Shown one piece after another: positions 1 to 41,765 of a DNA stretch of 64,000 nucleotides. The notes below the pieces were generated by a model that was not told where the DNA came from, searched no databases, and saw only the letters and a program-made list of their open reading frames with translations. The translations under genes and the position numbers were made by a program. Source of the stretch: a virus. The DNA lies in IMG/VR virus record IMGVR_UViG_3300025438_000014, positions 1-64,000 of that record; one strand, given 5' to 3'. Every line of letters starts with the position of its first letter. The stretch's first letter is position 1.

Positions 1-889
1 TGATAGGTGTATCAGCGCTATAGTTAAACTGGTTAGTTATTTTCTCACTAGAACAATAGGCATTTTTAACTTCTCTAGGTCTTCCCTTAAAGAACTCTAA
101 ATTTAAGTCTTTCTCGCACTTATAGCTTACTAGCTTAGCTAGATCGAGAATTGATAACTCGTTGTCTTCTGGACCTATATTAAATACTTCGCCACATAAG
201 TCTCTATCTGATAAGATAATTTGCTCTACTGCTCGGATACAATCAGTAACGTCTGAAAAAGAACGTTTCTGTGTACCATCACCATATACGATTATTCGTT
301 TACCTTGTAAAGTTCTATTAATCATAATACCTGCAACGTTTCTAAATGGATCAAAATATCTCTGACCTACCCCAATTACGTTGTGAGGTACTAAGGTAAC
401 ATAGTTTAACCCGTGTATATCAGAAAGCATAGCTAGGTGTTCTTCTGCTTGTACTTTAGCTAGACCATAAGGATCTACAGGTTTAGTAGGCATATCCTCA
501 GTAAATGGCGGAACTTGGTCCCCATATCTAGCCATAGAGCTACAATTAATAAATAAATGTACTTTATTATGAAGTGCTGCAATCGCAGTAGATAGTGTAC
601 CAGATACAATACTAGTTGCTGTTACTGTAGGGGAGAAAACACTTAACCCTTCATAGGGTAAGGCAGCTGCGTGAAAAACTACGTCGCAACCGTACATATA
701 CTCTTTTAATAATTCTGTATTTAGGATATCTCCCTGATGATAAGTAACTCCATCTGGAACATTACCTTCTACACCTCCGATACCGTTATCAATGCCTACA
801 ATCTCATAACCGCCCTTAGCTAATAAAAATCTTGCTAAGTTACTTCCTAGCAACCCTGCTATTCCTGTTATAAATACTTTAGTTACCAT
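1..889 (-). CDS. NAD-dependent sugar epimerase (SDR), 3' end outside window
   Basis: Translating the minus strand from the ATG at 889 gives an open frame that runs off the left edge. It starts with a Rossmann motif (ITGIAGLLGSNLAR) and has the SDR catalytic YGLAK further on, as in UDP-glucose 4-epimerase-like extended SDRs. It acts on a nucleotide sugar in the cytoplasm. It overlaps the stop of the upstream dehydratase by 7 nt, so the two are translationally coupled in the glycan cassette. The exact substrate cannot be told. Confidence 0.8.
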   Translation of the reverse strand, partial: MVTKVFITGIAGLLGSNLARFLLAKGGYEIVGIDNGIGGVEGNVPDGVTYHQGDILNTELLKEYMYGCDVVFHAAALPYEGLSVFSPTVTATSIVSGTLSTAIAALHNKVHLFINCSSMARYGDQVPPFTEDMPTKPVDPYGLAKVQAEEHLAMLSDIHGLNYVTLVPHNVIGVGQRYFDPFRNVAGIMINRTLQGKRIIVYGDGTQKRSFSDVTDCIRAVEQIILSDRDLCGEVFNIGPEDNELSILDLAKLVSYKCEKDLNLEFFKGRPREVKNAYCSSEKITNQFNYSADTPI

Positions 890-1845
890 TTTACATTCTC
901 TTTATAATGAGCTACTACATCCATTAAAGATATAGCTAGTTTATGTTGAGGCTTCCAGCCAAGTTGTCTAATTTTATCACTACATATTGAATAGTGCATA
1001 TCCTGCCCAGGTCTATCGTACCTATAGTTTATATACTTAGAATAATCAAGGTTTATACCTAGATAATAAAGGTCTATAATAACTTTAACCATCTCTTCAT
1101 TAGTTCTTTCTTCGTTTGAAGAGATATTATACGTTTCTTTATTAACACCTTTGGTAGTTGCTAACAAAATTCCATCTATAACATCCTGTGCATGAGTCCA
1201 TGTTCTAACAGGTAGACCCATATTATGAAGATTAATTTTCTTATCTCTACATAGATTTTTAACTACTAAAGGTATTAGCTTTTCTGGGAACTGCCTAAGA
1301 CCGTAAGTATTTGAAGGTCTAATAATTTTATAATCTAACCCATGTGTAGCATCCCAACTCTCGATTAAAAGGTCAGCCCCTGCTTTAGAAGCAGCATAAG
1401 GATTACAAGGTTTTAGCCTCTGTGTCTCGTTATAAGGAGTAGCAGAGGTATGATTCCCATAAACCTCGTCTGTAGATATTTGTATAAATATAGGTGGGTC
1501 AACTTTGATTGTTGCTCTTTTTCTTGTTAGTGCAAGTAGGTTTTCAACACCTGCAATATTTGTCTGAATGAAGTCACGTGAATTATTATTACTACTGTCT
1601 ACATCTGACTCTGCTGCAAAGTTAAAAAGAATATCGCAGTCTGGTATTTCTTCAATAGTTACTATATTATCAACTATAATATTGAAGTGCTTTGGGTAGC
1701 GTCTTTTAAGCCCCCACATAAAAGTTTTATCTGCAACTCTAGTTAAGCTATCAATACCATGAACGTAATAACCGAGAGATAGTAGTCTTTCCGTGAATGC
1801 TCCGCCTATAAATCCAGCACAACCTGTTACTGTAACGATTTTCAT
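883..1845 (-). CDS. dTDP-glucose 4,6-dehydratase-like SDR (RmlB-like)
   Basis: This 320-residue protein has an N-terminal NAD-binding motif TGCAGFIG, the STDEVYG motif typical of RmlB-type dehydratases near residue 125, and catalytic YAASK near residue 151. Family members oxidise and dehydrate an NDP-glucose to a 4-keto-6-deoxy sugar. The aminotransferase, glycosyltransferase and acyltransferase genes just upstream in the same unit would process such a product, so a decorated amino-deoxy sugar is the likely output (inference). Length is normal for the family. Confidence 0.85.
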   Translation of the reverse strand: MKIVTVTGCAGFIGGAFTERLLSLGYYVHGIDSLTRVADKTFMWGLKRRYPKHFNIIVDNIVTIEEIPDCDILFNFAAESDVDSSNNNSRDFIQTNIAGVENLLALTRKRATIKVDPPIFIQISTDEVYGNHTSATPYNETQRLKPCNPYAASKAGADLLIESWDATHGLDYKIIRPSNTYGLRQFPEKLIPLVVKNLCRDKKINLHNMGLPVRTWTHAQDVIDGILLATTKGVNKETYNISSNEERTNEEMVKVIIDLYYLGINLDYSKYINYRYDRPGQDMHYSICSDKIRQLGWKPQHKLAISLMDVVAHYKENVKW

Positions 1846-1846
1846 G

Positions 1847-2803
1847 CTAATGTCCTAAAGGAAAACACAATATATTATTATATAGTGTTTGGGAATGTGG
1901 TAAACCTTTTAAAGGGGTATAGTATTTCTTAACCTCTGGGTTTGTAGACTCTATATAATGATTACTAATTGCGGGCATACATGAGGGAAACCATTTATCA
2001 CGATCACCATAATGCGTCATTTTAAAAGGTTCTTGATAATCTTCATAGTTATCTACATATTCTTGAGCCATAGCTGTAATACTAAAGTTAGTCCACCACT
2101 GTAGAATAGCTGAAGCGCTAATCTCACTCATTTTATAGTTACTTCCGTATTTCGTACCTTTACCGTTTACAAGACCAAAAGCTATAGCTGCACGTACAGC
2201 TTTTTCATACTTTCTATCTACGATAGCTAGACCACCTTCACCAAACCCAATAGGTTTAGTGTGATGTAGCGAAACAAAAGAAGCATTACCGTAGTTACAC
2301 GAGTTAATCCCTTTATAAAACGAATAAGGAGTTGCTGCATTATCAAAAATTACTCTAAGATTATTAGCTTTTGCAGCTGCAAGAATAGTGTCTAGCTCCT
2401 GTACATGACCAAAACAGTTAGTTACAAGAAGTATATTTCCTTGCTTTAAGTTCATTAAATCAATAACGTGAGGTAAATTAATATCACTATTAAAATCAAC
2501 GATAATAGGATTTCTACATTCACCTTGAAAGGCTGGGTAGAACGTGAAGTCTTGTGTTATAACTCTAGGATATATGTTTTCAACTACAGCAATACCGTTT
2601 ATAATAGCATTAAGAGCTGCGGAACCGTTAACTACAGCGATTACAGCTTTACTATCACATATCTCAAGAATATTTCTTGCAGTTCTCTCAAGTAACTCTA
2701 CTGTACTACCTCCATTAGTATATTGATTAGAATCAATAGCTGGTTGAAGGTATAACATAAAGCTAGTTTCATCAAAAGTCTTAGTATGTACGAATTTTTT
2801 CAT
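1847..2803 (-). CDS. DegT/DnrJ/EryC1/StrS-like aminotransferase
   Basis: This is a 318-residue PLP-dependent fold type I protein. The segment around SLHHTKPIGFGEGG carries the expected Schiff-base lysine, and FDNAATPY has the cofactor-contacting aspartate. Such enzymes transfer an amino group to keto sugars made by RmlB-type dehydratases. It sits between the dehydratase and the glycosyltransferase-like gene with 1-nt gaps. It is somewhat shorter than the roughly 370 residues usual for the family. Confidence 0.8.
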   Translation of the reverse strand: MKKFVHTKTFDETSFMLYLQPAIDSNQYTNGGSTVELLERTARNILEICDSKAVIAVVNGSAALNAIINGIAVVENIYPRVITQDFTFYPAFQGECRNPIIVDFNSDINLPHVIDLMNLKQGNILLVTNCFGHVQELDTILAAAKANNLRVIFDNAATPYSFYKGINSCNYGNASFVSLHHTKPIGFGEGGLAIVDRKYEKAVRAAIAFGLVNGKGTKYGSNYKMSEISASAILQWWTNFSITAMAQEYVDNYEDYQEPFKMTHYGDRDKWFPSCMPAISNHYIESTNPEVKKYYTPLKGLPHSQTLYNNILCFPLGH

Positions 2804-2804
2804 T

Positions 2805-3572
2805 CTAAATTTCTATAGCAGAATATACAGTTTCCCAGTCTACATAGGGAGAGATACAGTATTCTTGTAAATGAGTAGCGTGACTTGGGATCGGGCATAC
2901 AGCTCCTGCTTGTGCAAAAGCTTTCCAAGTCCAGGAGTCATCAGCAAAAGCGCCTGCTCTTAGTAGCTCATATTTAAATTTAAGCCATGTATGTCCGTAG
3001 GCAGCTACAGTTAACGTAGCGCTCGGAATACTTCTGAGGTGCCCATAAGGCCCTGCATGAATTTCTGCAAGTTTAGAATTATCAAGCGTATATCTATCAG
3101 GATAATCATAAGGAGCGTAAAAACCTTGATAACCTTTAGCATACACGCCTTTCATCGCAGTAATTGCGTGTGGAAGGTGCAGGTAATCATCTTCACAAAT
3201 ATAAATTACTTCATCAGGATTATTTTCTGCAATCTTAATTAAAGCTTCCATTAGGTCTGGGCATGAGTTAGGTAACACAGGGTGGTATGTAGGGTAAGGA
3301 TGACTCGCTCTAAGCTCTTCCAAAGAGGTAATATCTATTTCTTCATATTGAGCAACCGTGTTATTACTGAACCAGTCAAGAGTATCAGGAGAGGTTCTAT
3401 CATTGATAATAAATATAGTATCATCAGGAGTAAGACCATTTTGTATAGACATATAGGACTTACGCAAAATCTCTAATTTACCTTTACCCATCCAACGCGG
3501 TTTATCTTCATAACCATCTCCTAGAGATCCTGGAGACAAGTTTGCTTCACAGCTTCTAAATAATACTATCAT
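2805..3572 (-). CDS. probable glycosyltransferase (GT-A-like)
   Basis: The 255-residue protein contains FIINDRTSPDTLDWF early and YICEDDYLHLP near residue 125, an acidic DxD-like site as in GT-A glycosyltransferases. Its gene lies inside the sugar cassette and overlaps the acyltransferase stop as ATGA. The family assignment rests on this motif and on context; the donor and acceptor are unknown. Confidence 0.55.
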   Translation of the reverse strand: MIVLFRSCEANLSPGSLGDGYEDKPRWMGKGKLEILRKSYMSIQNGLTPDDTIFIINDRTSPDTLDWFSNNTVAQYEEIDITSLEELRASHPYPTYHPVLPNSCPDLMEALIKIAENNPDEVIYICEDDYLHLPHAITAMKGVYAKGYQGFYAPYDYPDRYTLDNSKLAEIHAGPYGHLRSIPSATLTVAAYGHTWLKFKYELLRAGAFADDSWTWKAFAQAGAVCPIPSHATHLQEYCISPYVDWETVYSAIEI

Positions 3573-4174
3573 TTCTTTTTTACTATCATCCCTGATCTAA
3601 ATAATTCACTATTCTCCATATCGTCGAATACGTACTCACCTGCACTAACAGTATTATTGTTACCCAAGCTTACAAGAGGTACTACTGTAGCTCCTGCGCC
3701 AAAAAAGTTTTTATTACCAATTCTTACATTACCTAGTAAGGTTGCATAAGGAGAAAGGACATTATCATCACCTAACACACTATCGTGGTGCGTTGAAACA
3801 TAAGCATTAAAACAGTTGAAGTTACCTAAAACAGCGTTTGCATTGACTAGACTAAACTCACAGAATACATTTCCGTAACCCATTACAGACGTCTGTGAGA
3901 TACGAGACGTAGCTGCAAAGTAGTTAGGAAAATGCTTAATACCTAGTGGATACTGCTTACTTAATATAGAGATAAACATATCCCTATGTTTCTTTATACC
4001 TGTACCTAAAATAAACTTATCAGAACTAGATTTAGTGATTTCTTTTTTATTTGCTATGAGTTTGCCTTCATCATAACTTACAAAACCTGCAAAATCTGTA
4101 CAGTCTGAGTTTACAATCATTTGTTCAAAGATTTCTTTAGTAAAGCCACCTTGGCCTAAAATATATGTGCTCAT
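3569..4174 (-). CDS. NeuD/PglD-like sugar acyltransferase
   Basis: The N-terminus YILGQGGFTKEI resembles the nucleotide-sugar-binding Rossmann part of NeuD/PglD proteins. The C-terminal half is a hexapeptide-repeat left-handed beta helix (VNANAVLGNF, NVLSPYATLLG, NFFGAGATVV) with the usual catalytic histidines at THHD. Members acetylate amino sugars. The ATG at 4174 is preferred to the upstream TTG two codons earlier. It is the first gene of the glycan cassette. Confidence 0.75.
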   Translation of the reverse strand: MSTYILGQGGFTKEIFEQMIVNSDCTDFAGFVSYDEGKLIANKKEITKSSSDKFILGTGIKKHRDMFISILSKQYPLGIKHFPNYFAATSRISQTSVMGYGNVFCEFSLVNANAVLGNFNCFNAYVSTHHDSVLGDDNVLSPYATLLGNVRIGNKNFFGAGATVVPLVSLGNNNTVSAGEYVFDDMENSELFRSGMIVKKK

Positions 4175-4196
4175 TATCAATCTCTACTTATGGTTA

Positions 4197-4223: not shown

Positions 4224-4478
4224 TTATTTTATGTTTTTACTAGGAGCGCTTCTATCAGTAACAAAAGAATACATAGCTTCAGCTTTAGTTTTAACATCTG
4301 CATCTGTATACTGTGCTCTAGACTGAGCAGCAGACATTTCATCATTATTAAAATGTACTTCACTATTTAGCATATGGTTATAGGTTACTGAGGCTCGTTG
4401 ACGCTCTGCTTCTAGCATATTTTGTGCTAAAATTAAAACATCCAGCCTTACTTCATACGGGGTCTTTGTCATTATCAT
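4224..4478 (-). CDS. unknown small protein
   Basis: About 84 residues, mostly charged and helical in composition (LDVLILAQNMLEAERQRASV). No family is recognised. It overlaps the end of the vWA gene by about 25 nt and is followed by the hairpin at 4197. The start could be the ATG at 4478 or the one at 4472. Confidence 0.6.
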   Translation of the reverse strand: MIMTKTPYEVRLDVLILAQNMLEAERQRASVTYNHMLNSEVHFNNDEMSAAQSRAQYTDADVKTKAEAMYSFVTDRSAPSKNIK

Positions 4479-5262
4479 CACCTACTGCTGTTGCACGCTC
4501 ATCATCTGTAAAAGCACTACTAGCATATAGAGATTGAGTACTAGTACCCTCACTACGTGCTTGTCTCATAGCTGAGACTTTATTAGACGCAATAGACATA
4601 GTACCTGCCATAGCACCCTTACTAAACTGAATTGTGTTATGCTCCTGAAAACCATAAACACTTGATGCTGCGAAAGCATCAATGTCTGCACCCATAAAAG
4701 TGAATACCCAGTCTTTAGCTTCTGCTTTGGCGATCATCTGCTTAATATCAATACTTCCAAAAGTACTAGAAGCATTTTCATAGCCGTCAGTAAGAATATT
4801 AATAATAATAGAATCTCTATCAGCTTTCTTAGTTTCAGCAAACAGATTATTTACAGTAAGCATAACGGAACCTATTGCATCATTTAGATTTGTCATACCA
4901 GCTGGATTATAATCTCTACGAGTAATATGCTCTACTTCTTTAATGTTTTTACGAGTTACAATACTAATCACATTATTACCATCAAACTTAACAATAGATA
5001 CAAAAGTCTTAATCTTTTGTGCTTTTGAATCCTTACGCTGGCTGTCTAAAAACTCATTACAGCTACTAATCGTAGCGTCTGTTGAGCCGTTCATTGAGGA
5101 TGATTCATCTAGAATCATTACTACATGCGATGTTTTCGTTCCTGCACGTTTTGGTTTAAAAGCCTCGGCAAGAGTAAGTGGTTTTGGTGCCTTTATTGCT
5201 CCTGCAAGTGCTTCACCAATCAGTGACGATGTAACTGGTGCGTATGTTTTAATTCTTCTCAT
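4453..5262 (-). CDS. von Willebrand factor A domain protein
   Basis: The 269-residue protein has a vWA domain from about residue 45: VVMILDESSSMNGS supplies the MIDAS DxSxS motif (D52) and AGMTNLNDAI the MIDAS threonine. vWA domains bind a divalent metal and a protein partner. The gene lies downstream of the tmRNA in the same minus-strand unit. The partner is unknown; a second vWA protein, the Ro-like one, is far away at 56745. Confidence 0.8.
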   Translation of the reverse strand: MRRIKTYAPVTSSLIGEALAGAIKAPKPLTLAEAFKPKRAGTKTSHVVMILDESSSMNGSTDATISSCNEFLDSQRKDSKAQKIKTFVSIVKFDGNNVISIVTRKNIKEVEHITRRDYNPAGMTNLNDAIGSVMLTVNNLFAETKKADRDSIIINILTDGYENASSTFGSIDIKQMIAKAEAKDWVFTFMGADIDAFAASSVYGFQEHNTIQFSKGAMAGTMSIASNKVSAMRQARSEGTSTQSLYASSAFTDDERATAVGDDNDKDPV

Positions 5263-5336: not shown

Positions 5337-5540
5337 TCACCCCAATTTATACAGCAAGTGACCAACTTCGTCAGTAACTCTTTGTTTAAACTCTGGAAAG
5401 GATATAGTATCTTCACTTTTACAAAATTGTAGATTAAGAGGATGCTCAACACCATCAATATATGTAAATAGGAAAATATCATCATTGGGGAAACAACGCA
5501 TAGAAACATTGTATGCTACTTTGTTTATTGTTATACGCAT
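5337..5540 (-). CDS. unknown small protein
   Basis: 67 residues beginning MRITINKVAYNVSMRC. The ATG at 5540 is chosen because a good GGAGAG ribosome site lies just upstream; the longer reading frame would run into the tmRNA coding piece. No family is recognised. Confidence 0.65.
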   Translation of the reverse strand: MRITINKVAYNVSMRCFPNDDIFLFTYIDGVEHPLNLQFCKSEDTISFPEFKQRVTDEVGHLLYKLG

Positions 5541-5551
5541 GACTCTCCAAT

Positions 5552-5862
5552 AAAAATAGGCCCGTTCTGTTGCAAGGTGGAGCCCATACCCCATGTCGTT
5601 ACGCTGCTAGAGCGTAACCCATAGGTGCACTATTTTTGTTTGCATCTATAAAGTTTCTTGCGGTTACAGTCGCTTGCGCACTGGCTTCTAGCTTACTCTT
5701 TGATACCTGTCGATCCTATTTCGACCCCATCATCTACCTACTAAGTTCATTCTTTATCGTTACTAAGCGCTTAGCATGAATATAACGAGTTATCGTAGTA
5801 GGTAGGTGGTGGAGTCGCTGGGTACTGCCCCCAGGTCCAGAATATCTCCAATTCACATAATT
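5552..5862 (-). ncRNA. ssrA: circularly permuted two-piece tmRNA
   Basis: Read on the minus strand, the acceptor piece comes first: a T-stem-loop CTGGG/CCCAG with loop GGCAGTA, then CGACTCC, A and CCA ending at 5807. After a 78-nt intervening segment whose ends pair (CCTACCTACTA with TAGTAGGTAG), the coding piece starts at 5728 with GGGGTCG. GGGGTCG pairs with CGACTCC over all 7 positions, forming the acceptor stem with discriminator A. P2 (GGTATC/GATATT) also pairs across the two pieces. The coding piece holds a resume codon GCA and the tag ANKNSAPMGYALAA with a TAA stop (5643-5599). This is the gene order of alphaproteobacterial tmRNA, which is known to be processed into two RNAs and to rescue stalled ribosomes with SmpB. 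Outer ends are approximate. Confidence 0.92.
5599..5643 (-). other. tmRNA proteolysis-tag reading frame
   Basis: Fourteen codons from resume codon GCA to TAA encode ANKNSAPMGYALAA. The hydrophobic ALAA end is what ClpXP-type proteases recognise on tagged proteins; this is family knowledge. It lies inside the coding piece of the permuted tmRNA. Confidence 0.9.
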
Positions 5863-5877
5863 GAAGCGATGATTTTA

Positions 5878-6039
5878 TTATACTTCGTTTCTTAGTAGCT
5901 TTTCTAAATCTTTTTCATGTGGCTCATACTCTACCCATAGATCAGGACCAGAGATTTCCCCATGTTGTGGAATGTTACGAGCAGCTATTACACCTGATAA
6001 AAAGGCGTGTTTTAGCATACGTGCAATTAGCAGTGTCAT
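5878..6039 (-). CDS. unknown small protein
   Basis: 53 residues (MTLLIARMLKHAFLSG...LRNEV) with its start 1 nt from the stop of the ATP-grasp gene and an AAAGG ribosome site inside that gene. It ends just before the tmRNA. No family is recognised. Confidence 0.6.
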   Translation of the reverse strand: MTLLIARMLKHAFLSGVIAARNIPQHGEISGPDLWVEYEPHEKDLEKLLRNEV

Positions 6040-9197: not shown

Positions 9198-9383
9198 TTA
9201 CTTATCCCTGTTTACAACTATACCGGATACTGTTGCATAAGTATAATCTCCGGAGTCATCCCCACGAGTAACACGTATAGTAACACTAAAGTGGTCAGTA
9301 TCCCTATAACCAATACTATTAACATAGTTTTTGATAGCTTGAGTGATTTCATCGTCTGTAAGTGATAGTGTTATATCAGCCAT
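9198..9383 (-). CDS. unknown small protein
   Basis: 61 residues (MADITLSLTDDEITQAI...) with a C-terminal beta-rich part. It overlaps the next gene by one base. Confidence 0.6.
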   Translation of the reverse strand: MADITLSLTDDEITQAIKNYVNSIGYRDTDHFSVTIRVTRGDDSGDYTYATVSGIVVNRDK

Positions 9384-9613
9384 TAGTAATCAATCTGTTC
9401 TGGAGTAACCATTACTGCATTAAAATTAAAGATTCTAAAGTTGTCTTCTTCTAAGTCCCACACAAGCTTCATACCTGGAGCATATGTTTTCTCAGGTCCA
9501 GAACCGATAATCTTATCTTCAAGATAGTCTTCTGGTAAATCTTCAATATACGCAAAGATCATTTCTCTTACGTCACCATTTTTCTTAATAAACGAGCCTT
9601 GAAAAGCTTTCAT
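9383..9613 (-). CDS. unknown acidic protein
   Basis: 76 residues, rich in Glu and Asp (IEDLPEDYLEDKIIG). It is the first gene after its own minus-strand promoter at 9638-9667. Confidence 0.6.
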   Translation of the reverse strand: MKAFQGSFIKKNGDVREMIFAYIEDLPEDYLEDKIIGSGPEKTYAPGMKLVWDLEEDNFRIFNFNAVMVTPEQIDY

Positions 9614-19366: not shown

Positions 19367-20434
19367 ATGGAATATTTTAACAAAACACAGACAGACTGGC
19401 GTATTTCTCAATGCTGTCAGTTTAATGATAAAGATTTGGCAAAACGCTATAATCTTGGTACTACTACTAAGACTTATGCTTTAAAAGACGGTGGTAAAGA
19501 GCGAGTACAACAAAAAGCTTTAGCTAACGTAGCTAAGCTAGAGGACATTATTACTAACTATTTTCCAACACAACCTCGTAACTTGCGTGCTTTTCGTATA
19601 TCGTCTGAGCTATTTCCTTGTTATACTCTTGACTTTACTACTGATTGGTATAAAGAAATCTGGGAAGATCTTAGTGTTATACTGGCACGAACTGGTGAGC
19701 AAGCTAAAAAACACGAAATCAGACTGAGTGTGCATCCAGGGCAGTTTACTGTTCTCGGATCAGACAAAGCTAATGTAGTAGAAAACTCAGTTGCAGACTT
19801 AGAATACCATGCACATTATGGTAAGCTGATGAATATACCTGCCGAAGACTTTGTAATGAATATTCACTTACAAGGTTTGTATGGAGGTAAACATATTGAT
19901 GGTATTAAACGCTTTGCTTCTAATTTTAGCTATTTATCAGACTATGCTCAGAAGTGTTTAGCAGTAGAAAACGAAGATAAGCCTAATGGTTATGACATTG
20001 AACATACTATAGAATTAGCACAACGTATTCCTACACGATGCACTCTTGATACTCATCATTATGCTTGCCACCGTATGTTGCATACTGAAAAAGTTCATGA
20101 AAACGGTAAGATTGTAAACCGTAAAATTCGTGATGTACAGCATATTACAGCTAATTCCGACTTTTTTAAAGAAGCAGTAAAAACTTGGAAAGGTAGACGA
20201 CCTTTATTCCACAAGTCTCAGTCACATCATCCAGATAATTCAGAGTATTGGATGAAAGTCAACGCCCATAGTAACGTATTTTGGGACGAAGAACTTATGG
20301 CTAACCATGTACCTATGTTAGAATATGCAGACTTCGATATTGAAGCTAAACATAAAGAGATTGCTGTTGCAGGTTTTTATAGCTTTATTAAAGAAGAACA
20401 AAATATGAGCGGTGAAAAGATTATATGTAAATGA
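19367..20434 (+). CDS. uvsE: UV damage endonuclease UvdE/UvsE
   Basis: 355 residues with the TIM-barrel UVDE pattern: FRISSELFP, LSVHPGQF, NIHLQGLYGGK, VENEDK and TLDTHHY, which supply the metal-binding His, Glu and Asp residues. The enzyme nicks DNA 5' to UV photoproducts and starts an alternative excision repair. It has its own promoter and an AGGAG site. Confidence 0.9.
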   Translation: MEYFNKTQTDWRISQCCQFNDKDLAKRYNLGTTTKTYALKDGGKERVQQKALANVAKLEDIITNYFPTQPRNLRAFRISSELFPCYTLDFTTDWYKEIWEDLSVILARTGEQAKKHEIRLSVHPGQFTVLGSDKANVVENSVADLEYHAHYGKLMNIPAEDFVMNIHLQGLYGGKHIDGIKRFASNFSYLSDYAQKCLAVENEDKPNGYDIEHTIELAQRIPTRCTLDTHHYACHRMLHTEKVHENGKIVNRKIRDVQHITANSDFFKEAVKTWKGRRPLFHKSQSHHPDNSEYWMKVNAHSNVFWDEELMANHVPMLEYADFDIEAKHKEIAVAGFYSFIKEEQNMSGEKIICK

Positions 20435-29951: not shown

Positions 29952-30026
29952 GCCTGTATAGCATTGTGGCAATGCAGCAGCCTTCAAAACTGACGTAAGT
30001 GGGTTCGACACCCTCTACAGGCACCA
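29952..30026 (+). tRNA. tRNA with TCA anticodon (opal-reading)
   Basis: Perfect acceptor GCCTGTA/TACAGGC with ACCA, D-stem GCAT/ATGC, T-loop TTCGACA. The seven-nt loop CTTCAAA gives anticodon TCA, which reads UGA. The anticodon stem has only three good pairs, so the reading is less certain. Genes here do end in TGA. Confidence 0.6.
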
Positions 30027-33536: not shown

Positions 33537-34574
33537 ATGCACGACACTGTAGTATTTATTGGCAGGTTCCAGCCTTTACATTTGGGACACGAAGCTGTTA
33601 TTCGCGCAGCTTTAGAAAAGGGTAAACAAGTTATTGTAGCCGTTGGCTCTAGCTTTGCTTCCCGCACGACGCGAAACCCCTTTACATTTGAAGAACGCAA
33701 GCATATGCTTGAAACCGTGTTTTGTGATGAACCACGGTTAAAAGTCGTGCCTATTGCGGACTATCCTTACGACGATAATAAATGGGTTAATGCTGTTCGC
33801 AAGCAAGTAGCTAAGCATACTAAGCCTACAGACTCTATTGCTCTTATTGGCTATGCAAAAGATGAAACATCCTACTATTTAAACATCTTTCGTGATTGGG
33901 ATTCTATTAATGTTCCGGGACATGAAAAACTCAACGCGACAGATCTTAGAGTTGAGTTATTTAGTATTGTTCTTGAATGGGAACTTTATAATAACGAGCT
34001 GTTATGTAATGGTAAAACTCTATCCAGTAGGATGATATCAATACTAGATAAACTAGTTGTGAAACCAGAATTTGTACAACTATCTAAAGAGTATGCGCTT
34101 ATCCAAACCTACAAAGAAGCTTGGTCTGTTGCACCTTATGAGCCTACTTTTCATACAGTAGATGCTCTTGTTGTTCAGTCTGGTCATGTTCTTCTTGTTA
34201 AACGTAAAGCTGCTCCTGGCATAGGGTTGTGGGCGCTTCCTGGAGGGTTTCTAAACCCTAAAGAAACTACAAAAGACGGAGCACTTCGTGAGCTTCGAGA
34301 AGAAACTAAAATTAAAGTATCTCAGACTATCTTAGAAAGCTCAATCAAAGGCAAGCAAGTCTTTGATGAACCTAACCGCTCTACTCGCGGTCGAACAATT
34401 ACTACTGCTTTTCACTTTCAACTATCTGATAAGTTTGATTTCCCTAAAGTTAAAGGTTCAGATGATGCAGAAAAAGCTAAATGGGTTCCTTTCGAGCGTA
34501 TTCGTTCACAGGATATGTTTGAAGATCACTATCACATTATTGACTACTTTCTTAATATCGCAGGTGATGCATGA
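33537..34574 (+). CDS. nadM: bifunctional NMN adenylyltransferase/Nudix hydrolase
   Basis: 345 residues. Domain 1 (1-180) has GRFQPLHLGHEAVI, the HxGH nucleotidyltransferase motif that makes NAD from NMN and ATP. Domain 2 (200-345) has the Nudix box GGFLNPKETTKDGALRELRE then ET, which can cleave ADP-ribose or NAD derivatives. With NAMPT downstream it forms a two-enzyme NAD salvage route known from several large phages. Confidence 0.92.
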   Translation: MHDTVVFIGRFQPLHLGHEAVIRAALEKGKQVIVAVGSSFASRTTRNPFTFEERKHMLETVFCDEPRLKVVPIADYPYDDNKWVNAVRKQVAKHTKPTDSIALIGYAKDETSYYLNIFRDWDSINVPGHEKLNATDLRVELFSIVLEWELYNNELLCNGKTLSSRMISILDKLVVKPEFVQLSKEYALIQTYKEAWSVAPYEPTFHTVDALVVQSGHVLLVKRKAAPGIGLWALPGGFLNPKETTKDGALRELREETKIKVSQTILESSIKGKQVFDEPNRSTRGRTITTAFHFQLSDKFDFPKVKGSDDAEKAKWVPFERIRSQDMFEDHYHIIDYFLNIAGDA

Positions 34575-34735
34575 AACGTAGAGTAATAACATATAAGTAC
34601 AAGCCAGGCTGGTGGGGTATTATGGATTATAAAACCTATGACACTACAGAAGCTAAGGTTGATGCTTTTATTAAAGTCTTTACTAAAACATTACCAAAAT
34701 ACTACCACGTAACAGTAATAACTTTAGACGGATAG
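34571..34735 (+). CDS. unknown 54-residue protein
   Basis: MKRRVITYKYKPGWWGIMDY onward, ATGA-coupled to nadM and lying before the NAMPT gene. Unknown. Confidence 0.55.
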   Translation: MKRRVITYKYKPGWWGIMDYKTYDTTEAKVDAFIKVFTKTLPKYYHVTVITLDG

Positions 34736-34751
34736 ACCGTCGAACAGAACA

Positions 34752-34768
34752 GCAAAAGGAGTTTTTGC
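34752..34768 (+). promoter_or_regulatory. RBS in hairpin loop
   Basis: GCAAAA-GGAG-TTTTTGC, the same design as before nadM. Confidence 0.65.
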
Positions 34769-34769
34769 A

Positions 34770-36275
34770 ATGAAAAATATTCTATCAGTACTAACCGCTA
34801 TCCTACGAGTTGATGGCTATAAGCCTTCCCAATGGGTACAAACACCTACTAACACTACGGGAATCAGTTCTTATATTGAGTCCCGTGGCGGAGCAGCAAA
34901 AAGTGTCTTCTTCGGCCCACAAGCCTTTATTAAAGAGTATCTACTAGTACCTATTACAGTAAGCGATGTTAAGTTTGCAAAAGCTGTATTTGCGATTTAT
35001 GGCGCACCCTTCAATGAAGAAGGTTGGATGACTATTGTAAACGAGTATGGCGGCTTTCTACCTCTTGAGATTGAGGCAGTACCAGAAGGTACTTATATGG
35101 AGACACGCAACGTACAGGTACAGGTTACTGCTACTGATGATCGTCTAGCATGGTTGACCTCGTATGTTGAAACCGCGCTTCTACGAGGTGTATGGTATCC
35201 TTCTACCGTTGCTAGTGAGTCAAGAGAATACAAAGTTATGTTGTTAAAAGGTCTGTATGCAACCTCTGATATTCCTATAGATGTTCTACGTGATGTAGTA
35301 GTAAAGTTCTCGCTGCATGACTTTGGTGCTCGGGGCGCTTCTTCTTCAGAAACAGCTGTATTAGGTGGTATGTCACACCTTGTTAACTTCTGGGGAACAG
35401 ATACTGTTGAAGGACTTATCGGAGCGTATAGCTTCTATAATGCTGATATTACGAGTGCAGATGCTCCACCAGTCGGTAGGACTGTTCCTGCCTCTGAGCA
35501 TAGTGCTATCACTTCTTGGGGCCGTGCTAATGAAGCTGCTGCTTTTGAAAATATGATTGATCAGTTTAGTGAGCCAGGTTCTATCTATGCTTGCGTTTCT
35601 GATAGTTTTGATATTTACAACGCAACTTCAAATATCTGGGGAACTCAACTAAAAGATAAGGTAATTGCTTCTGGGGGTACCCTAGTTGTACGCCCTGACT
35701 CAGGTGATCCACTTACTATGCCTATCAAAGTACTTGAAATGTTAGCTGAAAAGTTTGGCTATACTGTAAATAGCAAAGGGTATAAGGTACTTGCAGTACG
35801 TAAGAGCGATGGAAGCCCTATTGTTAAAGTAATTCAGGGGGATGGTCTAGATAAGAAATCACTTCCTATTCTTATTGCCAATATCATAAGTGCTGGTTTT
35901 AGTCTTGAAAACATTGCTTTTGGTATGGGCGGTGGTCTACTTCAAAATGTTAATCGTGACACCTTGAAATATGCAATGAAAGCTTCTGCAATCCGTGTAG
36001 GAGAAGGTGACTGGGTAGGTTTCTCTAAAGACCCTGTTACTGATCCAGGTAAAAAGTCTAAAGAAGGACGCCTTGGCCTTATCTATACTTGCGGTATTGG
36101 TAGCTGTAGCTTTAAGACTGTACCTAAGCATATTGCTGACGAAAAAGGCAAAAATGTTATGCGAGTCGTATATAGAAACGGTAAGCTGCTAGTAGATGAT
36201 AACTTTGAGACTGTTCGCGCGCGCGCAGAGGTTCAAGAGATTGAGTTTACTAACGAGCCTGTAGAAAGATACTAA
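34770..36275 (+). CDS. nadV: nicotinamide phosphoribosyltransferase (NAMPT)
   Basis: 501 residues, full length. Landmarks: SRGGAAKSVFFGPQAF, FSLHDFGARGASS, SDSFDIYNATSNIWG and VVRPDSGDP, the phosphoribosyl and nicotinamide site. The enzyme joins nicotinamide to PRPP to make NMN for NadM. It ends at a strong terminator. Confidence 0.95.
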   Translation: MKNILSVLTAILRVDGYKPSQWVQTPTNTTGISSYIESRGGAAKSVFFGPQAFIKEYLLVPITVSDVKFAKAVFAIYGAPFNEEGWMTIVNEYGGFLPLEIEAVPEGTYMETRNVQVQVTATDDRLAWLTSYVETALLRGVWYPSTVASESREYKVMLLKGLYATSDIPIDVLRDVVVKFSLHDFGARGASSSETAVLGGMSHLVNFWGTDTVEGLIGAYSFYNADITSADAPPVGRTVPASEHSAITSWGRANEAAAFENMIDQFSEPGSIYACVSDSFDIYNATSNIWGTQLKDKVIASGGTLVVRPDSGDPLTMPIKVLEMLAEKFGYTVNSKGYKVLAVRKSDGSPIVKVIQGDGLDKKSLPILIANIISAGFSLENIAFGMGGGLLQNVNRDTLKYAMKASAIRVGEGDWVGFSKDPVTDPGKKSKEGRLGLIYTCGIGSCSFKTVPKHIADEKGKNVMRVVYRNGKLLVDDNFETVRARAEVQEIEFTNEPVERY

Positions 36276-40739: not shown

Positions 40740-41765
40740 ATAATAAGAATTGGCGGTATAGCGTCATTAAGGATACCATATAGCAATATATGCAAAGAGG
40801 TGATTTCTACATAACCTCACTACTCTAGTAGTAGCCTATCTATAAAACCCTAAGTTAGTTGTAACCGTGTATGCATGAAGTGCAACGCTTCATTAATGGA
40901 GCTAGGTAAGAAGTTAAGTATATAGTCCGAAAGGATAAGTCCAGGCCAACGGTGAGGACGAATACGGTGGGAGCTGTAACTACGTAATTCCAACTTAACG
41001 ATTACTAAATACTAATAGGAGATTACGTTATAGTCTGACTATTCGCGTAGAAAGGCGACGTAATAACACAAACGGTGAGGGCTTTAACGAGCCAAAGTCG
41101 TGAAGTGTGGTTGAGTATCCCGCAAGGAGAAAAACAGGAGGTGTGTTGCATTTTGTATCTAACAAGGTATGAAGCAACTGGAACAGCACATCTTAGTAGA
41201 TTAACTTAGTCCAATGGTTAGGACGTCTGATCCCACATCAGAAGTTAAGAGTTCGAGTCTCTTAGTTTTTATGAAAAAAGCGAAAGACTGTTCCGGTATA
41301 TTGTTAAAAGTGCTTAATGCCTTAGTCGAAAGACAATAAGGCTCATGATAGCTCGCAAGGCAGGATTGATTGTTCGGAAAGAAGACGTAATAGTTTAGCG
41401 ACTATGAACTGCCCGACGAAGGTAGACGGAAGATTGAAAGACGAGTAGCAATATGCGACAGGAGAACCGCCTCTCCTCAAAAAAGGCAGCACTGAGAGAT
41501 ACTAGGATAGCTTCGGCACTTAGTGGATACGAATTAACGCTCCATAGCAACGGATACGGTACGGTTCTAAGGCTCTCACTCGATGGTGTAATCTCAGCCA
41601 ATCTACAAAAAAACTTTGATGTTAGATAAAGCTAACACGACCAGAGATAACACTGGGTGCTAAAGTGATACTAGCAAAACACAATCCGTGTCAGTTGCGT
41701 TACCCGCTGGCTAATGGTGGTATGCTGTGCCCACTAACTATAATTATTTTAATGATACATAGAAT
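40740..41765 (+). ncRNA. large ornate ncRNA, GOLLD-like
   Basis: About 1 kb without a gene, starting right after a promoter. It is full of short stems closed by GNRA loops (TCC-GAAA-GGA, GTC-GAAA-GAC, CC-GCAA-GG) and has a tRNA-like domain embedded at 41200. Size, phage location, tRNA neighbourhood and embedded tRNA fit GOLLD RNA, a family known from phages and lake metagenomes. I cannot align it to the GOLLD consensus here, so it could be a new RNA of the same style. Confidence 0.55.
41200..41271 (+). tRNA. tRNA-like domain inside the large ncRNA
   Basis: D-arm GTCC/GGAC, perfect anticodon stem TCTGA/TCAGA with loop TCCCACA, perfect T-arm AAGAG-TTCGAGT-CTCTT. Position 33 is C instead of T, the acceptor pairs only 5 of 7 and no CCA is encoded, so it is probably not a working tRNA. 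Confidence 0.55.

Follow-up and report, generated by a model that had tools for sequence, protein, structure and literature searches.

The DNA analyzed here, referred to as the window, is a stretch of 64,000 nucleotides from a viral record that consists of a 64,409-base linear fragment with 37.4% GC and 29 tRNAs predicted by ARAGORN. The record encodes phage protein families, and its proteins show kinship to those of large phages, several of which infect Alphaproteobacteria. On the minus strand, at 5555-5880 (outer ends approximate), lies an ssrA gene of the alpha type, which encodes a permuted (two-piece) tmRNA. ARAGORN called a permuted tmRNA (tmRNA*) at 5508-5901(-) with the tag ANKNSAPMGYALAA, and an Rfam gathering search returned matches to RF01849 (alpha_tmRNA; 5910-5555(-); 114.4 bits against a gathering score of 50; E value of 1.9e-30) and RF04321 (tmRNA_permuted; 5867-5599(-); 108.1 bits against a gathering score of 47). 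Both scores are more than twice their thresholds and far beyond chance, so the covariance check proposed with the original prediction of a permuted tmRNA came out in its favor. Together, these results confirm that a virus of bacteria carries a permuted tmRNA gene that is complete and correctly built.

The Rfam matches and the sequence delimit an acceptor piece (the 5' RNA; 5807-5870, 5' end inferred), encoded before a coding piece (the 3' RNA; 5555-5728, 3' end approximate). Folding places an 8-bp hairpin, CTTCAATT-ATGTG-AATTGGAG, at the 5' side of the acceptor piece (5846-5866). This hairpin and a TATAAT at 5882-5877 probably mark the 5' end near 5870, so that the limits first given for the gene, 5552-5862, hold except on the acceptor side, where they are slightly short. 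The T arm (5834-5818) consists of a 5-bp stem with all five pairs formed and a 7-nt loop (CTGGG-GGCAGTA-CCCAG), and it shows compensatory changes among phages. It is followed by the 3' acceptor strand CGACTCC (5817-5811) and by ACCA, comprising A73 and the encoded CCA (5809-5807) that ends the acceptor piece. The coding piece begins at 5728 with GGGGTCG, which pairs with CGACTCC across the two pieces in 7 of 7 positions, including the G3-U70 alanine-identity pair. Between the pieces lies an intervening segment (ITS; 5806-5729) of exactly 78 nt, whose excision is expected and whose ends, CTACCTACTA and TAGTAGGTAG, pair over 10 bp. Such end pairing of at least 10 bp was reached by 21 of 5,000 sequences in a mononucleotide shuffle control, and the fold of a 78-nt stretch placed 5 nt off the exact ITS (5734-5811) surpassed all but 1 of 200 shuffles (z = -3.0). 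The tag reading frame, identified by ARAGORN and from the sequence, occupies 5643-5599, with the resume codon GCA, 14 codons ending in ALAA, and the stop codon TAA. Thus, the full acceptor stem, the ITS with self-pairing ends, and the 14-residue tag are all present as originally described.

The 3' hairpin region of the coding piece (5555-5590) carries the loop motif GCAACAGA, which is present in 28 of 32 cellular alpha tmRNA genes. The outer inter-piece helix of the cellular model and its UAUGGCGAUAAACG segment were not recovered in the window gene: in the RF01849 alignment, the outer pairs are flagged as nonstandard and the UAUGGCGAUAAACG segment is partly deleted. These elements are a sub-feature of the RF01849 model and no part of tmRNA function. 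The P2 helix rests on the Rfam alignment, since minimum free energy folding of the two pieces without pseudoknots did not reliably recover it.

We then compared the T arm and acceptor stem among 22 distinct phage sequences. All 264 pair cells held standard pairs (100%), a percentage that is biased upward because the exact 23-mer used to retrieve many of these loci leaves no variation in the 5' acceptor strand and because the extraction script demanded a minimum of 6 acceptor pairs and 4 T-stem pairs. The double changes are more telling: 40 of the 264 cells were changed on both sides in a compensatory manner, and the covariation score was reached by none of 500 shuffles and was far lower in slid controls. 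The U-G pair (G3-U70) was invariant in all 22 sequences.

Upstream of the gene, the TATAAT at 5877-5882(-) is a candidate -10 box. It is a perfect match at nearly the position seen in phage relatives, most of which have the arrangement TTGACA-N17-TATAAATA, and it is accompanied in the window by a weak -35 element (TAGAAA). A promoter-like sequence of the form TTGACA-N16-18-TATAAW, with at least 10 of 12 positions matching, was found in 67 of 87 phage genes, compared with 3 of 30 cellular genes and about 4% of shuffled controls, and in the phage relatives it sits mostly at one distance, in a nearly fixed place. The roseophage tmRNA genes scored had no recognizable TTGACA/TATAAA promoter. We also considered a T4-type late promoter, as TATAAATA is common in the relatives at a nearly fixed place, yet the window shows no enrichment of the motif (8 occurrences versus 11.9 expected). 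Given this lack of enrichment and the TTGACA located about 17 nt away in the relatives, a sigma70-type promoter is the simpler reading. The TATAATAAA motif was only weakly enriched in the window (8 versus 3.8). It is equally possible that the window tmRNA is cotranscribed from upstream genes.

The tmRNA gene sits within a phage, as first proposed, and the genes on both sides run in its direction. Downstream, all on the minus strand, a predicted 67-amino-acid (aa) ORF (5337-5540) starts about 15 nt past the tmRNA and is followed by a gene for a vWA-like protein (phrog_7371; 4453-5262), homologues of which lie directly after a tmRNA in viral contigs L003 and L004, and by a four-gene sugar cassette (883-4180) that encodes an epimerase, a DegT aminotransferase, a 255-aa protein, and a hexapeptide transferase. 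Homologues of all or some of these four genes lie downstream of a tmRNA in contigs L015, L021, L017, and L049. On the other side, a 76-aa ORF (9383-9613(-)) has homologues just upstream of the tmRNA in L015, L021, and L037, and the upstream R2K gene had no relative in viral contigs in a protein-based search. The tmRNA has been kept in place while its sequence diverged, so it is probably under selection.

Elsewhere in the window, a GOLLD RNA (RF02032, 167 bits) spans 41138-41600(+), and its 5' part contains a predicted tRNA-Trp(CCA) (41200-41271); a published study (PMC12286853) mentions tRNAs located in the GOLLD linker. There are three tRNA-Trp(CCA) genes in the window, and a 75-nt tRNA with anticodon UCA (29952-30026(+)), labeled SeC by ARAGORN, possibly reads opal codons, yet TGA still ends 9 of the 49 long ORFs counted. 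Adjacent genes for a cytidylyltransferase-NUDIX (NadM-like) protein and a nicotinamide phosphoribosyltransferase (NAMPT) at 33537-36275(+) are likely an NAD+ salvage pair, the NAMPT being about 54% identical to roseophage proteins. A UvdE-family UV-damage endonuclease is encoded at 19367-20434(+).

A nucleotide search with the whole locus against 50,697 phage records gave no match at an E value of 1e-5, and isolate phages were reached solely by a relaxed search with the tmRNA alone. The exact 23-mer, taken from the 5' coding end, was present in 114 viral-contig stretches. In genome contigs, a 26-mer had no match and a 22-mer matched three contigs of metagenome-assembled genomes, which are probably co-binned phage contigs. 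Among cultured phages, annotated tmRNA copies were found in Melnitz and DSS3_MAL1, and further copies were found in DSS3P8, V10, MD18, RcXuper, and Phosso, whose records list no tmRNA feature at the matching position. Two contigs, L003 (1955-2368) and L004 (5387-5770), carry phage tmRNAs with an unusual T loop, TTCGAA, seemingly of 6 nt, versus the GGCRGTA loop of alpha tmRNAs. The Rhodobacteraceae metagenome-assembled genome Water_Bin34 (G011; loci L128 and L131-L137) contained eight alpha_tmRNA matches, of which one is cell-like (284 bits) and about seven score lower and mostly resemble phage copies, a pattern suggestive of co-binned phage contigs.

A phage-encoded permuted tmRNA is no new phenomenon and has already been published. 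A 2022 study (PMC9004378) reported 402 tmRNA-bearing phages and 53 unique two-piece forms, most of them from marine or aquatic settings, described the Methylophilales phage Melnitz, and noted that phage copies are shared with host lineages; another study lists 79 phage tmRNA sequences (PMC11915505). Melnitz (MZ577097) and the pelagimyophages (PMC9004378) resemble the window in that they encode an alpha-type permuted tmRNA with a coding piece starting in GGGG and a G3-U70 pair. Their ssrA has a long ITS (142 nt) and a sigma70-like promoter with TATAAATA, and it groups with phage genes in both of our trees. The differences from the window lie in the acceptor stem (GGGGGCG/CGCCTCC), the tag (ANDNYVPVDYALAA versus ANKNSAPMGYALAA), and a reported glutamine riboswitch; no riboswitch was present among the Rfam matches of the window. 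The roseophages DSS3_MAL1, DSS3P8, V10, MD18, and RcXuper, in which the window's NAMPT also has some of its best matches, share with the window a permuted tmRNA and 14-aa tags. They have ITSs of 98-111 nt and differ in their acceptor stems (GGGGCCG/CGGCTCC; GGGGTCG/CGGCTCC in DSS3P8). Viral contigs L015, L021, L003, and L004, in which the tmRNA adjoins homologues of the same flanking genes, encode the tags ANENFAPKAYALAA, ANDNFVANEDYALAA, ANNNFAPKSFALAA, and ANTNAKPEVRLAA, respectively.

The chromosomal two-piece tmRNAs of Alphaproteobacteria (RF01849; Caulobacter type) resemble the window gene in gene order, tRNA-like domain, T-loop sequence, GCAACAGA motif, and AA-ending tag. However, they have a shorter ITS (median of 32-37 nt versus 78 nt) and tag (median of 12 aa versus 14 aa), and they usually contain the outer inter-piece helix and the UAUGGCGAUAAACG-like motif that the window gene lacks. 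In 115 alphaproteobacterial genomes, chromosomal copies mostly scored 143-313 bits with RF01849, compared with 114 bits for the window gene, and the phage records scored and the phage-like contigs in bins gave 46-145 bits. As a check on selection bias from the 23-mer, we examined 16 phage genes found by other routes, and these had a median ITS of 98 nt versus 32 nt in cells (P = 6e-7) and a median tag of 14 aa versus 12 aa (P = 2e-5).

Two trees were built in all, a full one and a trimmed one, with cellular rows that were the top and bottom scorers of one sample rather than all hosts. The full tree of 117 rows required 2 changes of the phage/cell label (shuffle average of 33; split support of 64/91), and one change was enough in 10% of the bootstrap trees. 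The trimmed tree omits five rows (L188, L127, L178, L174, and L172), which were picked once the first tree had been seen because they had long branches or an atypical tag. In this tree, 76 phage rows stood on one side of a branch and 36 alphaproteobacterial rows on the other, with a support (96/90) that is optimistic because two of the omitted rows were those crossing the divide in the full tree, where the cellular gene L178 was placed with the phages and the phage gene L127 with the cells. In both trees, the labels were strongly clustered and the window tmRNA stood among phage genes, its nearest row being 72% identical.

Altogether, we consider it very probable that the phage owns an ssrA gene whose product performs trans-translation with host SmpB and alanyl-tRNA synthetase, its function in infected cells being deduced from established tmRNA biology. 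On that basis, transcription, processing, charging, rescue, and tag degradation would proceed as follows. One precursor RNA would be transcribed, in which the acceptor stem and a P2-like helix would join the acceptor and coding pieces, and host tRNA-processing enzymes would excise the 78-nt ITS hairpin, yielding a two-piece tmRNA. The host alanyl-tRNA synthetase would charge this tmRNA via the G3-U70 pair, and host SmpB and EF-Tu would bring it to ribosomes that have stalled on broken mRNA, where translation would resume at GCA and add (A)ANKNSAPMGYALAA, a tag whose end resembles a ClpXP degron. The phage could thereby keep ribosomes free while host mRNA is destroyed, and control of ribosome rescue during infection, as originally suggested, is a reasonable expectation. 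We found no SmpB in the 64-kb record, a fragment of the phage genome, or in 18 other phage records with related tmRNAs, among which are nine isolate genomes that were deposited as complete; host SmpB would thus probably be needed.

The phage tmRNA might instead be specialized to compete with or replace that of the host, being charged and entering ribosomes yet writing a different tag (ANKNSAP versus the ANDN type) that alters adaptor binding and the fate of tagged proteins. The greater length of the phage tags found independently of the 23-mer and their variation at tag position 3 (K in the window, D in almost every cellular tag compared) point in this direction, but the window tag still has the usual ClpXP-type end, ALAA, and tags vary widely among cells too. 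We regard such specialization as improbable, though it is compatible with the main explanation.

The original prediction had also suggested capture from a host, and since ssrA is a known integration target, fragments of which are known in prophages (PMC9004378), the window gene could be a recently captured host ssrA or a fragment left at a prophage attachment site. Yet both pieces are complete, identity to any row is at most 72%, the gene groups with phage rather than cellular genes, its tandem neighbors recur in other contigs, and no integrase match was found among the window proteins scanned, which cover part of the ORFs. A recent capture is therefore very unlikely, and the idea of capture stands solely as an old event, as the gene, placed among phage tmRNAs and scoring below the main chromosomal range, is traceable to no sampled host. 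Still less credible is a decaying, nonfunctional copy: the covariance score is below those of cellular genes and the outer alpha-specific helix is unformed, but the acceptor stem, T stem, G3-U70 pair, CCA, tag frame, and stop codon are all intact, compensatory changes occur across phages, and low scores are common to other phage genes.

Returning to a phage-owned ssrA, the window copy lies in a branch found in viruses, apart from the sampled bacterial copies, and so has the appearance of a gene that viruses have carried for a long time, not of one newly taken from a host. A broader proposal, to which we give an even chance, is that a single, old lineage borne by viruses and evolving apart from host ssrA accounts for the permuted tmRNAs of alphaproteobacterial phages. 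This lineage would often have a sigma70-type promoter of its own, together with an acceptor piece that is shortened, a long ITS closed by a hairpin, and 13- to 14-aa tags, and large phages would keep it as a translation-rescue module. In the open-license literature, we found no description of the separation between phage and cell tmRNAs or of the shared promoter, ITS, and tag traits, which is weak evidence of absence.

Phage tmRNAs have so far mostly been treated as curiosities or host captures. Our comparison suggests a viral branch that is distinct and widespread and has a promoter and a processing segment of its own, and it revealed several unannotated tmRNA copies in cultured roseophages. 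It also carries a warning, as metagenome-assembled bacterial genomes can contain several phage ssrA genes. Why a phage should need ribosome rescue of its own can now be tested directly in non-pathogenic laboratory pairs, for example, Ruegeria pomeroyi DSS-3 and DSS3P8.
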